Under the pieces are notes generated by a model that worked only from the letters and a program-made list of their open reading frames with translations, searched no databases and was not told the origin of the DNA. Below, piece after piece: positions 30,988-48,092 of a stretch of DNA of 64,000 bases (position 1 is the stretch's first letter; each line of letters begins with the position of its first letter). The stretch is from Pseudomonas sp. HR96 (lineage in GTDB: Bacteria; Pseudomonadota; Gammaproteobacteria; Pseudomonadales; Pseudomonadaceae), in NCBI RefSeq assembly GCF_034059295.1, contig NZ_CP139141.1:2215001-2279000 (forward strand). Direction: 5' to 3'. A program made the translations under genes and the position numbers.

Positions 30988-31318
30988 GTACAATTTATAG
31001 GCCTGGTGAGCGGCGTGAGGCAAGCTTTTTTTATGCCGGTGGATGAAGTGGATAGAGCCGTGCGCTGTCGCGGTGCCGTCGGCAGGGAACGCGCACTGTT
31101 TTCGGGATAAGAAGCGTATACGCTATTAAATGAGTATTCTTTATCGGCATCTCAGGGAGAGGCGTATTGGAATGGCTATTAGAAATAACACGTTAAATCA
31201 GACAGGTAAAAATTTCTATACGGTGAACTGATCGGCTATTCCGTGTGGCCCGGCTTTTGCTTTGACTGGTATATCAAGCGTGTAAATTATTTACGCCGGT
31301 CCTCACAGGAGATTCACC
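30988..31318. other. 331-bp divergent promoter region
   Basis: The GntR operon is transcribed leftwards and the ACS transporter rightwards from here. The centre (31120-31220) is AT-rich. The only distinct element is the sigma-54-like site at 31246-31261 on the transporter side. Confidence 0.5.
31246..31261 (+). promoter_or_regulatory. Putative sigma-54 promoter of the ACS transporter
   Basis: TGGCCCGGCTTTTGCT fits the -24/-12 pattern (GG and GC elements ten bases apart). It ends 58 bases before the transporter start codon and is one of six such sites in the 31-48 kb segment. Confidence 0.55.
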
Positions 31319-32626
31319 ATGTCTACCAGCAGTGTAGCCTCGGCCGAGCTGGGCGCGTCCGACACCCAGCCGATCTACCGCAAGGTGATCTGGCGGCTGA
31401 TCCCGTTTTTGTGCTTCTGCTATCTGGCGTCTTACCTGGACCGCATCAACGTCGGCTTCGCCAAGCTGCAGATGCTCGACACTCTGCACATGAGCGAGAC
31501 CGCCTATGGCCTCGGTGCGGGCCTGTTCTTCGTCGGCTACATCCTGTTCGAAGTGCCGAGCAACCTGGCGCTGGAGAAGTTCGGTGCGCGGATGTGGATC
31601 GCGCGGATCATGATCAGCTGGGGCCTGTTGTCCGGCCTGACCATGTTCGTCTCCAACGAGTGGCAGTTCTACTCGCTGCGGTTTGCTCTAGGTGTGGCCG
31701 AGGCCGGCTTCCTGCCGGGGGTGCTGTATTACCTGAGCCAATGGTTTCCATCGTGGCGGCGCAGCCGCATCATTGCCCTGTTCATGATCGGCTTGCCGTT
31801 GTCCAGTCTGCTCGGCAGCCCGCTGTCCGGCTGGATCATGGGCAACTTCAACGGCGTGTCGGGTCTGGCCAGCTGGCAGTGGCTGTTTCTGCTGGAGGCG
31901 CTGCCGACCGTGCTGCTGGGCTTTCTCTGCCTGGTGGTGCTGCCCAATGGCATCGGGGATGCCAAGTGGTTGAGCGACAGCGAGAAGGCCGAGCTGCGCG
32001 GTGTGCTGGCGGAGGATCAGGCCGAGAACAAGGGTGGCCATTCCTTTCGTGACGGCTTCTTCGATATCAAGGTGTGGATGCTCGGTGGCATCGACTTTTC
32101 CATCCTGCTCAGTGCCTACGCCATGGGCTTCTGGCTGCCGACCTTCATTCGCAATGCTGGCGTTGCTTCGCCGGCCCAGATCGGCCTACTGGTGGCGATC
32201 CCCAGCCTGGCCGGCTTGTTCGGCATGCTGGCCATCGGCGGCAGTTCGGACCGCCATCGCGAGCGGCGCTGGCACATCGTGGTGCCATTCATCATCGGCG
32301 CCGGTGCGATGTTTCTCAGTACGTTCTTTACCCATAACGTGGCGGTAACGGTGTTGCTGTTCTCGCTGGCGTCGCTGACCATCATCGGCGCGGTGCCAGT
32401 GTTCTTCAGCCTGCCGGCCACTTTTCTCAAGGGCACGGCGGCAGCCACAGGCTTCGCCCTGGCCTGTTCGGTGGCGAACATTGCCGGGCTGGTGAGCAAT
32501 TCGTTGATGGGGGCGGTGATGGACCATTTCCACAGCCCGCAGGTGGCGATGTGGATCTTCGCCGGTTGCCTGCTGCTGAGTTCGTTGCTGGTGCTGGCGT
32601 TGCCGGCGAAGACGGTCAATCGGTAA
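31319..32626 (+). CDS. ACS-family MFS transporter (possible nicotinate importer NicT)
   Basis: 435 residues and twelve helices. CYLASYLDRINVGFAKLQM is the diagnostic start of the anion:cation symporter branch, and GLGAGLFFVGYILFEVPSNLALEKFGAR is the loop 2-3 motif. Members import organic anions such as phthalate, hydroxyphenylacetate or nicotinate. It lies on the opposite strand to nicFEDC and is separated from it by a REP array. In P. putida KT2440, as I recall, nicT follows nicF in the same operon. The match in family and position suggests NicT in a rearranged place, but another substrate is possible. CAGGAG precedes ATG 31319 by about eight bases. Confidence 0.78.
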   Translation: MSTSSVASAELGASDTQPIYRKVIWRLIPFLCFCYLASYLDRINVGFAKLQMLDTLHMSETAYGLGAGLFFVGYILFEVPSNLALEKFGARMWIARIMISWGLLSGLTMFVSNEWQFYSLRFALGVAEAGFLPGVLYYLSQWFPSWRRSRIIALFMIGLPLSSLLGSPLSGWIMGNFNGVSGLASWQWLFLLEALPTVLLGFLCLVVLPNGIGDAKWLSDSEKAELRGVLAEDQAENKGGHSFRDGFFDIKVWMLGGIDFSILLSAYAMGFWLPTFIRNAGVASPAQIGLLVAIPSLAGLFGMLAIGGSSDRHRERRWHIVVPFIIGAGAMFLSTFFTHNVAVTVLLFSLASLTIIGAVPVFFSLPATFLKGTAAATGFALACSVANIAGLVSNSLMGAVMDHFHSPQVAMWIFAGCLLLSSLLVLALPAKTVNR

Positions 32627-32649
32627 GGACGGATACGCGAGGGCGGCTG

Positions 32650-46805: not shown

Positions 46806-48056
46806 ATGGACAGAGCATTGCGAGTCGGCATCATCGGCGCCGGCATCGGCGGCGTCACCCTGGCCCGCGCCCTCGCGCAGCAAGGCATCGAGGCGCGGAT
46901 CTTCGAGCGCGCGGCGATGTTCGGCGAGGTGGGCGCGGGCGTGCAGATGACCCCCAACGCGGTCAAGGTGCTCAGCGCGCTGGGCCTGGACGAGCAGTTG
47001 AAAAAAATCGGCTTTCTGCCTGAGGCCATGATGGGGCGCAACTGGAAGACCGCCCGCGAGCTGTTTCGCACGCCGCTCAAGGCCAGCTGCCGCGAGCTGT
47101 ACGGCGCCGACTTCTACCACGTGCATCGCGCCGACCTGCACGCGGCGCTGGCCAGTGGCATCCAGCCTGGCCAGGCCAGCTTTGGCGCGCACTGCGTGGG
47201 CCTGGAGCAACGCGCCAATACGGCGGTCGCGCAGTTCGCCGACGGCAGCGAGTTCGAGGCCGACCTGATCGTCGGCGCCGACGGCGTGCGCTCGGTGATC
47301 CGCGAGCGGCTGTGGGGCCAGGAAGCGGCCAACTACACCGGGCACATGTGCTGGCGTGCGCTGGTCAAGGTCGACCAGCATCCGCTGCCCTTCGTCAGCC
47401 CCGACTCCAATTTCTGGATGGGGCCCAAGGGCCACGTGGTCACCTACTACGTCAAGGGCGGGGCGATGGTGAACATCGTCGCGGTCAACGAAAGCCCGGC
47501 CTGGGTCGAGGAGTCATGGAATGCCAAGAGCTCACAGGCCGAGTTGCTGGCAGGCTTCCAGGGTTGGCACCCGAACCTCATCGAGCTGTTCAAACGCGCC
47601 GACCCCGACGCCATCTACAAATGGGGCCTGTTCGACCGCGACCCGATGCCCACCTGGTCCAAGGGCAACGCCACCCTGCTGGGTGACGCCGCGCACCCGA
47701 TGCTGCCGTTTCTTTCCCAGGGCGCGGCCATGGCCATCGAGGACGGCTATGTGCTCGCCCGTTCGTTGGCCCACCACGGCTCGCAGCACCTGCAACAGGC
47801 CTTGCAGGCCTACGAGGCAGAGCGCCTGCCGCGCACTCGCCGGGTCCAGCTGGAAGCTCGCGAGCGCGGCCGCACCTATCACCTGCCTTCGGCCTGGTCG
47901 CAGCTCAAGCGCGACATGGCCTACCGCTGGCGGCAGTTGCTCAATCCCAATGCGGTGGGCATCCAGGCCAACTGGGTCTACGAGTACGACGCCCGCGACT
48001 GCGGCTCGCGCTTCTCCGCTTTTCAGGCACCTGCGGCCCGCCTGAAAAGCGCCTGA
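46806..48056 (+). CDS. FAD-dependent monooxygenase (salicylate hydroxylase/NicC-like)
   Basis: 416 residues, group A flavoprotein monooxygenase. GAGIGGVTLARAL binds FAD, DLIVGADGVRSVIRE is the DG motif, and LLGDAAHPMLPFLSQGAAMAIEDG is the GD motif. It is related to nicC in this window but has Gln in place of NicC's catalytic His47 (GAGVQMTPNA) and lacks the His302 equivalent, so it should use a different ring substrate. It probably hydroxylates the product of the Rieske step. AGAGGA precedes ATG 46806 after a 76-bp gap. Confidence 0.88.
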   Translation: MDRALRVGIIGAGIGGVTLARALAQQGIEARIFERAAMFGEVGAGVQMTPNAVKVLSALGLDEQLKKIGFLPEAMMGRNWKTARELFRTPLKASCRELYGADFYHVHRADLHAALASGIQPGQASFGAHCVGLEQRANTAVAQFADGSEFEADLIVGADGVRSVIRERLWGQEAANYTGHMCWRALVKVDQHPLPFVSPDSNFWMGPKGHVVTYYVKGGAMVNIVAVNESPAWVEESWNAKSSQAELLAGFQGWHPNLIELFKRADPDAIYKWGLFDRDPMPTWSKGNATLLGDAAHPMLPFLSQGAAMAIEDGYVLARSLAHHGSQHLQQALQAYEAERLPRTRRVQLEARERGRTYHLPSAWSQLKRDMAYRWRQLLNPNAVGIQANWVYEYDARDCGSRFSAFQAPAARLKSA

Positions 48057-48076
48057 ATCATGGCTGGCAAGCCAGT

Positions 48077-48092
48077 TGGCATAGCTGTTGCT
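48077..48092 (+). promoter_or_regulatory. Putative sigma-54 promoter of the Liv-type importer
   Basis: TGGCATAGCTGTTGCT, with a perfect TTGCT -12 half and correct spacing, ends 82 bases before the binding-protein ATG and only 21 bases after the monooxygenase stop. The importer therefore seems to have its own promoter. Confidence 0.65.

Follow-up and report, generated by a model that had tools for sequence, protein, structure and literature searches.

The DNA analysed here, referred to as the window, is a stretch of 64 000 nucleotides of the genome of Pseudomonas sp. HR96 (assembly GCF_034059295.1, contig NZ_CP139141.1, positions 2 215 001–2 279 000 of the forward strand). It carries the nicotinate degradation genes nicC, nicX, nicR, nicA and nicB, the gene of an MFS transporter (acs), a TetR-family gene, an operon headed by a Rieske oxygenase gene and the gene of a Liv-type periplasmic binding protein. 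The features discussed in the text are collected in table 1.

Table 1. Genes, promoter candidates and regulatory motifs, in window coordinates. Scores are out of 17 unless stated otherwise.
Feature	Position	Strand	Evidence
−24/−12-like site before MFS transporter gene (acs), uncertain	31246–31261	+	score 16
NicR-type palindrome before nicC	37264–37275		conserved AGTGTATACGCT-like block in alignments
Claimed nicC sigma-54 site, unsupported	37288–37303	−	score 14.5; 0/80 relatives
nicX −24/−12 site TGGCTCGGGCATTGCA, sigma-54 or shared with a sigma-70 −35 box	37387–37402	+	score 16
NicR-type palindrome before nicX	37440–37451		conserved AGCGTATACGCT-like block in alignments
Twin NtrC-type element, two GC-N11-GC dyads 20 bp apart, nicX leader	37460–37496		77/80 relatives
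nicX	37530–38582	+	relatives 87–93% identical in 80 nic loci
nicA sigma-54 promoter (very probable) TGGCATCGCTCTTGCT	39150–39165	+	score 16; 69/71 relatives; core invariant in 70 rows
Palindrome ATGCAGTACTTCAT, candidate NicS-like repressor site directly after nicA −12 box	39174–39187		alignment
nicA (39205–39744) and nicB ORF (39692–43315)	39205–43315	+	Pfam [2Fe-2S], molybdopterin and cytochrome c domains
TetR-family gene, candidate repressor of Rieske operon	43398–44084	+	Pfam TetR_N, TetR_C_30
Degenerate NtrC-like pair before Rieske promoter	44531–44566		9 and 9 of 14
Rieske-operon sigma-54 promoter (supported) TGGCATGACCCCTGCT	44642–44657	+	score 16; 5/5 relatives of 56–90% identity
AT-rich candidate TetR operator after Rieske −12 box	44676–44697		similar sequence at 43345–43366 before tetR gene
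Rieske oxygenase, reductase and FAD monooxygenase genes	44728–48056	+	Pfam
Liv-operon sigma-54 promoter (supported) TGGCATAGCTGTTGCT	48077–48092	+	score 16; kept in 3/3 relatives
Liv-type periplasmic binding protein gene	48174–49394	+	Pfam Peripla_BP_6

An earlier note on this DNA had proposed RpoN promoters at six intergenic sites, before acs, nicC, nicX, nicA, the Rieske gene and the Liv gene. Direct inspection of the window sequence confirmed the GG-N10-GC geometry at all six coordinates, and the sites end 39–127 bp before the start codons. Sites were scored with a weighted consensus (maximum 17), the weights having been taken from the consensus after the claim was read and before any score was known. 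On the two strands of the window, exactly five sites score at least 16 (31246, 37387, 39150, 44642 and 48077); all are on the plus strand and none is within a called gene. In 200 dinucleotide shuffles of the window the mean was 1.38 such sites and five were reached in 4 shuffles; the reversed window has none, and spacings altered by −2, −1, +1 and +2 give 0, 1, 2 and 0 sites of this class, respectively. The excess over chance is confined to this top class: at least 15 is scored by 8 sites (10.2 expected from the shuffles) and at least 14.5 by 12 (16.0 expected), and the plain pattern with three mismatches has 97 matches in the window versus 146 in the shuffles. Given the shuffle mean and the lack of excess at lower scores, the note's estimate of a couple of chance matches per window was about right. 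Elsewhere in the genome, strict sigma-54 patterns mark glnA, fliE, fliL, flgG and flavohaemoprotein genes; the strict pattern has 42 matches genome-wide, 25 of them inside ORFs. By itself, the window is suggestive of sigma-54 sites, and the deciding evidence comes from relatives.

The conservation is strongest at nicA. At a threshold of 13, 69 of the 71 relatives have a site on the same strand, compared with 4/72 for nicR and 5/71 for the antisense strand at the same threshold. In the 70-row alignment the core is invariant, the upstream flank holds little information and the flanks are unconserved; sigma-70 scores at this promoter resemble those of random stretches. The site is also kept in L075 and L081, loci of the group of P. 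putida KT2440. The site at 39150 is thus very probably a real sigma-54 promoter. A palindrome related to that after the −12 box is found in 66 of 71 relatives with a loose pattern used without a control.

The Rieske-gene site is kept in the five relatives of 56–90% identity and missing in four more distant ones (below about 50%), which supports an RpoN promoter there. A sequence related to the candidate TetR operator is present in loci L155–L157, and relatives of the tetR gene (84–89%) adjoin the Rieske gene in L184–L186. The Rieske operons of relatives contain NicD- and NicX-like genes, and a NicF-like gene in one case, which points to a pyridine, broken down by way of 2,5-dihydroxypyridine, as the probable substrate. 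An RpoN promoter is likewise supported at the Liv operon, where all three relatives have a 16-point site 92–94 bp upstream; a sigma-70-like match (9/12) at the window's Liv promoter has no equivalent at that position in these relatives.

The other three of the six proposed promoters fared less well. There is an even chance that nicX, acs and nicC have ordinary sigma-70 promoters under NicR, their −24/−12 appearance being accidental or arising from a TTGC −35 box. The nicX site is found in about 42–44 of 80 relatives (42 at a score of at least 14), and the sigma-54 call is undecided because its TTGC also resembles a conserved sigma-70 −35 box: TTGC is kept in 77 of 77 loci and a −10-like hexamer (at least 4/6) in 74, and the GG is lost in many. 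Against a pure sigma-70 promoter, the window's own −10 matches at 3/6 only, GG and GC are correctly spaced in 46 of the 77 loci, and in four loci (L023, L024, L025 and L042) the −24 and −12 elements are retained while the bases between them have changed. At acs, a sigma-70-like TTGACT-17-AATTAT (9/12, a value that 5 of 400 random stretches reach) follows the site, most relatives have no counterpart (10/78 score at least 14, nine of these being one sequence), and a sigma-54 promoter is uncertain. The nicC site was rejected: it is kept in none of the 80 relatives, and its score equals those of coding matches at 18461 and 44806. A sigma-70-like TTGCAA-17-TTTAGT (8/12) is found there, and on present evidence nicC is outside the RpoN targets. 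Outside the genus, nicX relatives were found in 5 other genomes of 369, with 38–47% identity. Palindromes of the repressor type lie close to the start regions, which suggests that RpoN accounts for just half of the regulation.

As the note had stated, no sigma-54 activator domain is found within the window. The genome has one rpoN, 16 strong enhancer-binding activator domains and, outside the window, ntrC (TIGR01818, 795.7 bits; cut-off 558.6). The note's further proposal, a single nitrogen-linked regulon with NtrC encoded elsewhere as a possible activator, is plausible: the ntrC gene, the dyads of the nicX leader and the Rieske pairs in two of three close relatives favour it, but an NtrC consensus scan of 69 loci found no NtrC-like site at a constant position close upstream of nicA. 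The best score there (of 14) is 12 in 1 locus, 11 in 14, 10 in 8, 9 in 31 and below 9 in 15. Twelve loci share a TGCGCGATCA..G-type sequence 306–376 bp before the nicA site, which probably represents nicR codons and, less probably, a site. The same scan before nicX gave no constant position. Before the Rieske gene, L156 and L157 have good NtrC-like pairs, those of L155 and the window are weak, and L158–L159 have none; the window's pair alone is at background level, and its position matches that of the pairs of 12 and 10 of 14 in L156 and L157. Scores of 9–10 of 14 are not above background at the window's Rieske promoter, or even at the strain's own glnA and glnK.

In the relatives that have it, the twin element of the nicX leader measures exactly 37 bp, and its inner GC doublets are conserved although the search did not require them. 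Unlike the arrangement at the strain's own glnA and glnK, where the dyads are spaced by 31 and 33 bp, the nicX dyads are 20 bp apart and lie on the downstream side of the promoter, a long way from nicA. Of the 71 loci that contain nicA, 68 possess the element together with the nicA box, two closely alike loci have neither and one has the box only. A matrix of the element has no match before the strain's own glnA, Rieske or Liv genes, and a 15.3-bit match in L158 is distant from the Rieske start. The bare outer pattern of this matrix has 19 occurrences genome-wide; in the six nicX loci outside the genus the twin pattern was found once, inside the coding match. Quite tentatively, the leader could hold one shared NtrC enhancer. 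From 1.6–2.3 kb upstream it would act on the nicA promoter, over the intervening nicX and nicR, and in loci with a nicX −24/−12 promoter it would act on this one too, from a fixed place 55–57 bp downstream of its −12 box.

It is possible, though rather unlikely, that the sigma-54 promoters are activated by another of the 16 enhancer-binding proteins, one responsive to the carbon state or to a compound of the pathway. The number of activators offers such a choice, and the lack of a constant NtrC site near nicA and the 20 bp dyad spacing agree with it. However, a search with 15 of the genome's 16 activators (all but L015) detected an activator gene close to just one of 80 nic loci (L024) and to none of five Rieske loci; this rarity makes a global activator likelier, and the GC-N11-GC dyads at nicX agree with NtrC sites described for P. 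stutzeri. That the 37 bp element is a leader RNA, a hairpin for example, and not an NtrC site is improbable, and this reading was dropped. The element is indeed part of the leader and has complementary outer bases, but the outer pairs lack covariation (pair 1–37 forms in 55 of 73 distinct elements versus 57.2 in shuffles), the inner pair 9–29 is the sole pair above shuffles, Rfam gave no match, and the fixed length and inner GC doublets agree with two DNA dyads. That all five 16-point sites are chance matches could draw on the shuffle counts, the lack of excess at lower scores and the ORF matches in the genome, but three of the sites, those before nicA and before the Rieske and Liv genes, are conserved, which speaks against it and leaves it highly improbable.

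Taken as a whole, the data are probably best explained by NtrC/RpoN-driven, repressor-gated use of pyridines as a nitrogen source. From the motif, its location and conservation and the presence of rpoN and ntrC, all directly observed, we infer promoter function, the identity of the activator, the repressors and the nitrogen signal. Sigma-54 promoters would transcribe nicAB, the Rieske–reductase–monooxygenase operon and the Liv-type transporter. Closed RpoN polymerase would sit on the −24/−12 boxes and be opened by an enhancer-binding protein encoded elsewhere; the likeliest candidate is NtrC, phosphorylated when nitrogen is limiting. Repressors of the pathway, bound a short way downstream of the boxes, would block the start until substrate is present, the result being an AND gate of nitrogen need and substrate. 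At nicX an older sigma-70 promoter has probably been retained, with TTGC common to its −35 and the −12 box; either or both may work here. Genes for pyridine degradation, of nicotinate and probably of a related ring compound, would then carry the promoter type of nitrogen-stress genes. If so, the nitrogen-starvation system of pseudomonads governs the breakdown of vitamin B3 (nicotinate) and a linked pyridine pathway, in addition to the repressors already known. The nicA promoter is a named candidate testable in laboratory strains, and the neighbours of the Rieske operon in relatives give a lead on the linked pathway, connecting it with the ring-cleavage route of nicotinate.

Systems of the XylR type rely on an activator that senses the substrate, unlike the clusters described here, beside which no activator gene was found. 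The two resemble each other in the use of sigma-54 for ring compounds in Pseudomonas, as described in the available text on P. putida for Pu/XylR and phenylacetate uptake (PMC3900584, PMC3224230). Nicotinate degradation in P. putida is presented in the text available as a NicR/NicS repressor circuit (PMC10269826); the genes are the same and palindromes are present where NicR and NicS could act. The HR96 genome differs in having no close NicS (best match 34%), and a putative sigma-54 layer is added to an account of repressors only. The −24/−12 promoters, remote global activator and GC-N11-GC dyads are like those of nitrogen genes under NtrC/RpoN in Pseudomonas (the strain's glnA and glnK; P. 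stutzeri A1501, PMC8443478, as far as its text was available), whereas the target here is a pathway of ring catabolism that has repressors of its own.

No statement that RpoN or NtrC controls nic genes occurs in the accessible portions of the literature found, including PMC12316311, PMC6837509, PMC10269826 and PMC8443478, and an earlier prediction may exist. The main text of an RNA-seq study of an rpoN mutant (PMC7801951) and the available text of PMC6120874 contain no nic term. A figure legend in PMC3162934 lists nicotinate among sigma-54-associated metabolites, and in the available part of PMC8125075 nicF, nicE, nicD, nicC and nicX are among the genes changed with FleQ/c-di-GMP.

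The earlier note had proposed six GG-N10-GC sites in the window, and all six are present. Each.GG-N10-GC. on both strands was scored against TGGCAYG-N4-TTGCW (maximum 17); exactly five sites reach 16, those of acs, nicX, nicA, the Rieske gene and Liv. In 200 dinucleotide shuffles, the mean number of 16-point sites is 1.38 and five are reached four times; the reversed window contains none, and wrong spacings give 0, 1, 2 and 0. At score 15 or 14.5 the window has no excess over the shuffles, and its evidence alone is therefore only suggestive of RpoN promoters.

The genome examined comprises 5.87 Mb in four contigs. 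The nic gene names follow the earlier note, gene order and domain content; NicX has no match in Pfam or NCBIfam.

Positions of the sites, genes and repeats (window coordinates unless a contig, C1, or a relative's locus, L, is named)
Feature	Position	Strand	Remark
Window	C1:2215001-2279000
acs site	31246		score 16
acs (name from the earlier note)	31319-32626		MFS transporter gene (Pfam)
143-bp unit, eight tandem copies	32641-33804		94% matches; between inverted acs and nicF
nicF, nicE, nicD, nicC		minus	Pfam
nicC site	37303-37288	minus	score 14.5
nicX site	37387		score 16
Leader element	37460-37496
nicX, MarR gene (nicR), nicA, nicB, TetR gene	TetR 43398		in this order after nicC; Pfam, NicX excepted
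nicA site	39150		score 16
nicA palindrome, shortened	39174-39187
178-bp unit, three tandem copies	44106-44637		96%; directly upstream of the Rieske promoter
Rieske site	44642		score 16
Rieske oxygenase, reductase, FAD monooxygenase, Liv-type binding protein, permease			beyond the TetR gene; Pfam
Liv site	48077		score 16
NicD-/NicX-like copies	L184 10345-12909; L186 7258-9133		second, diverged; inside the Rieske operon
Shared site TGGCATGCCACTTGCT	L187 13446; L188 4103	minus	score 17 of 17
Nearest match to nicB-adjacent TetR gene	C1:5071115-5071699		34% identical

Across the genome, two strict sigma-54 patterns give 29 matches against 6 in the reversed control, and 18 against 3; with the spacer lengthened by one base, 9 are found against 26 in the control. 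The 42 distinct places comprise 17 intergenic ones and 25 inside ORFs, as called by codon composition. The intergenic matches include the starts of glnA, fliE, fliL and a flavohaemoprotein gene, and others precede a Liv-type and an amino-acid-type binding protein gene; the flgG match, upstream of the gene, shares bases with the end of the ORF before it. Four of the window's sites (nicA, nicX, acs and Liv) are among the strict matches; the Rieske site, with CTGC instead of TTGC, is not.

Conservation was counted in the best 80 of 270 nicX loci (79 labelled Pseudomonas, one Gammaproteobacteria) as sites on the same strand no more than 160 bp away, with thresholds of 13, 14 and 15. Among these best 80, nicA has a site in 69, 68 and 62 of 71 loci, while the control regions give 4, 2 and 0 of 72 (nicR), 5, 0 and 0 of 71 (nicA antisense) and 0, 0 and 0 of 80 (nicX antisense); the box is absent from two loci, L058 and L065. 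When the 69 relatives and the window were aligned, requiring only GG and GC, T precedes GG and GC in 70/70 rows and C follows GG in 69/70; the 29 upstream bases at -30 to -2 carry only 0.01-0.37 bits. A -10-like hexamer (at least 4 of 6) lies 16-18 bp after TTGC in only 3 of the 69 loci, and the best sigma-70 scores there, 6-9 of 12 and usually 7, are comparable to the values for random stretches. The nicA site is thus very probably an RpoN promoter, judging from its sequence conservation.

The Rieske gene has relatives (E<=1e-60) in 9 of 298 genus genomes, its own aside. The site is present (15-16 of 17) in three relatives of 89-90% identity and two of 56%, and absent from four of 46-48%. Liv relatives (E<=1e-100) occur in three other genomes, the same trio that has the closest Rieske genes, and all three carry a 16-point site 92-94 bp before the gene; a sigma-70-like match at the window's Liv gene (9 of 12) is not matched in position there. 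Both sites are very probably RpoN promoters as well. The earlier interpretation is thus supported in part: nicA, Rieske and Liv are backed by conservation in relatives, nicX may be of either promoter type, acs is doubtful and nicC is not supported.

In all three close relatives the TetR gene, too, is preceded by a 16-point site, where the window has none of at least 13. Each 178-bp copy upstream of the Rieske promoter contains a GGCACCACAATA..GCAGTGCA stretch as well as one of TTAGCTAGTTAATTAAATTGCAC, so that regulatory sites may have been triplicated here. The full-score site is shared by L187 and L188, whose genomes each have a Rieske relative of 56% identity; in L187 it precedes a family 3 solute-binding protein gene.

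At nicX, same-strand sites occur in 44, 42 and 27 of the best 80 loci. Among the 77 of these that carry the leader element, 46 have both GG and GC at a score of at least 13, all 77 have TTGC, and 74 have a -10-like hexamer after it; the TTGC may therefore be a sigma-70 -35 box. The -10 matches, out of six, number 3 in the window and in L025, 4 in L024 and L042, and 5 in L023; in these four relatives' loci the bases between -24 and -12 vary and both boxes are kept. Possibly the box serves both sigma factors.

An RpoN promoter at acs is doubtful. In 78 relatives from the best 80 loci, acs is found behind nicF on the strand of the nicC operon (78/78), and in the window it is inverted and separated from nicF by 1.2 kb of tandem repeats, which may therefore mark a rearrangement. 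A site of at least 14 within 250 bp occurs in 10 of the 78, nine of them one identical sequence, and a sigma-70-like TTGACT-17-AATTAT (9 of 12) lies downstream of the window's site, which may be new or fortuitous. The nicC site, with 0, 0 and 0 of the best 80 loci at the three thresholds, was rejected.

Downstream of the nicX box, [TCA]GCAC-N27-GTGC[AG] of exactly 37 bp is found in 77 of the best 80 loci. Although the search required only the outer GCAC and GTGC, the inner doublets are conserved (G15 and C16 78/78, G22 77/78, C23 69/78, window included), giving two GC-N11-GC dyads 20 bp apart. NtrC sites of P. stutzeri are described (PMC8443478) as conserved GC and GC with 11-nucleotide spacing. 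Pairing across the element covaries at one inner pair only. Against an NtrC site, a genome search with just the outer pattern (T...A ends) gives 19 places (control 6), and the element's matrix has no match before the organism's own glnA. Where the nicX site is present too (44 loci), the element begins 55-57 bp downstream of the -12 box there; relative to the nicA site it begins 1622-2307 bp upstream (68 loci). Of the 71 nicA loci among the best 80, 68 have element and nicA box, two neither and one (L102) the box only.

The genome has one rpoN gene and 16 strong activator domains, NtrC being identified; none of the 16 lies in the window, in agreement with the earlier note, and an activator gene is near the cluster in 1 of the best 80 of 270 loci. 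Before the Rieske gene, NtrC-like pairs reach 10 and 12 of 14 in the relatives' loci L156 (-112/-93) and L157 (-114/-94). The pair of L155, at 10 and 9, and that of the window (-111/-92), at 9 and 9, are weaker, and no pair in the two 56% relatives rises above background. A score of 12 or more is rare, with 21 matches in 1.57 Mb of loci; a score of 9 is not. The genome's own glnA and glnK pairs, spaced 31 and 33 bp, score only 9-10, and the consensus therefore discriminates poorly here. NtrC is the likeliest activator, a putative assignment held with moderate confidence.

Between the monooxygenase and Liv genes, the relatives' loci L184 and L186 carry NicD- and NicX-like genes (56 and 55%); L185 has none above the 45% cut-off. 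In L184 the Rieske operon further includes a NicF-like gene of the isochorismatase family, and together these genes would form a self-contained 2,5-dihydroxypyridine route. The Rieske operon's pathway, which the earlier note left unassigned, thus probably proceeds via 2,5-dihydroxypyridine.

A palindrome, ATGnAGT..ACT, follows the nicA -12 box in 66/71 loci from the best 80 of 270 (loose pattern, without control); AGYGTATACGCT-like palindromic blocks occur at nicC and nicX, and an AT-rich repeat follows the Rieske -12 box. All are placed where repressors could act. The TetR gene adjoining nicB in three relatives' loci (L081, L024, L029) is taken as NicS. In the window the nicA palindrome persists, shortened, despite only a 34% match to this gene in the genome.
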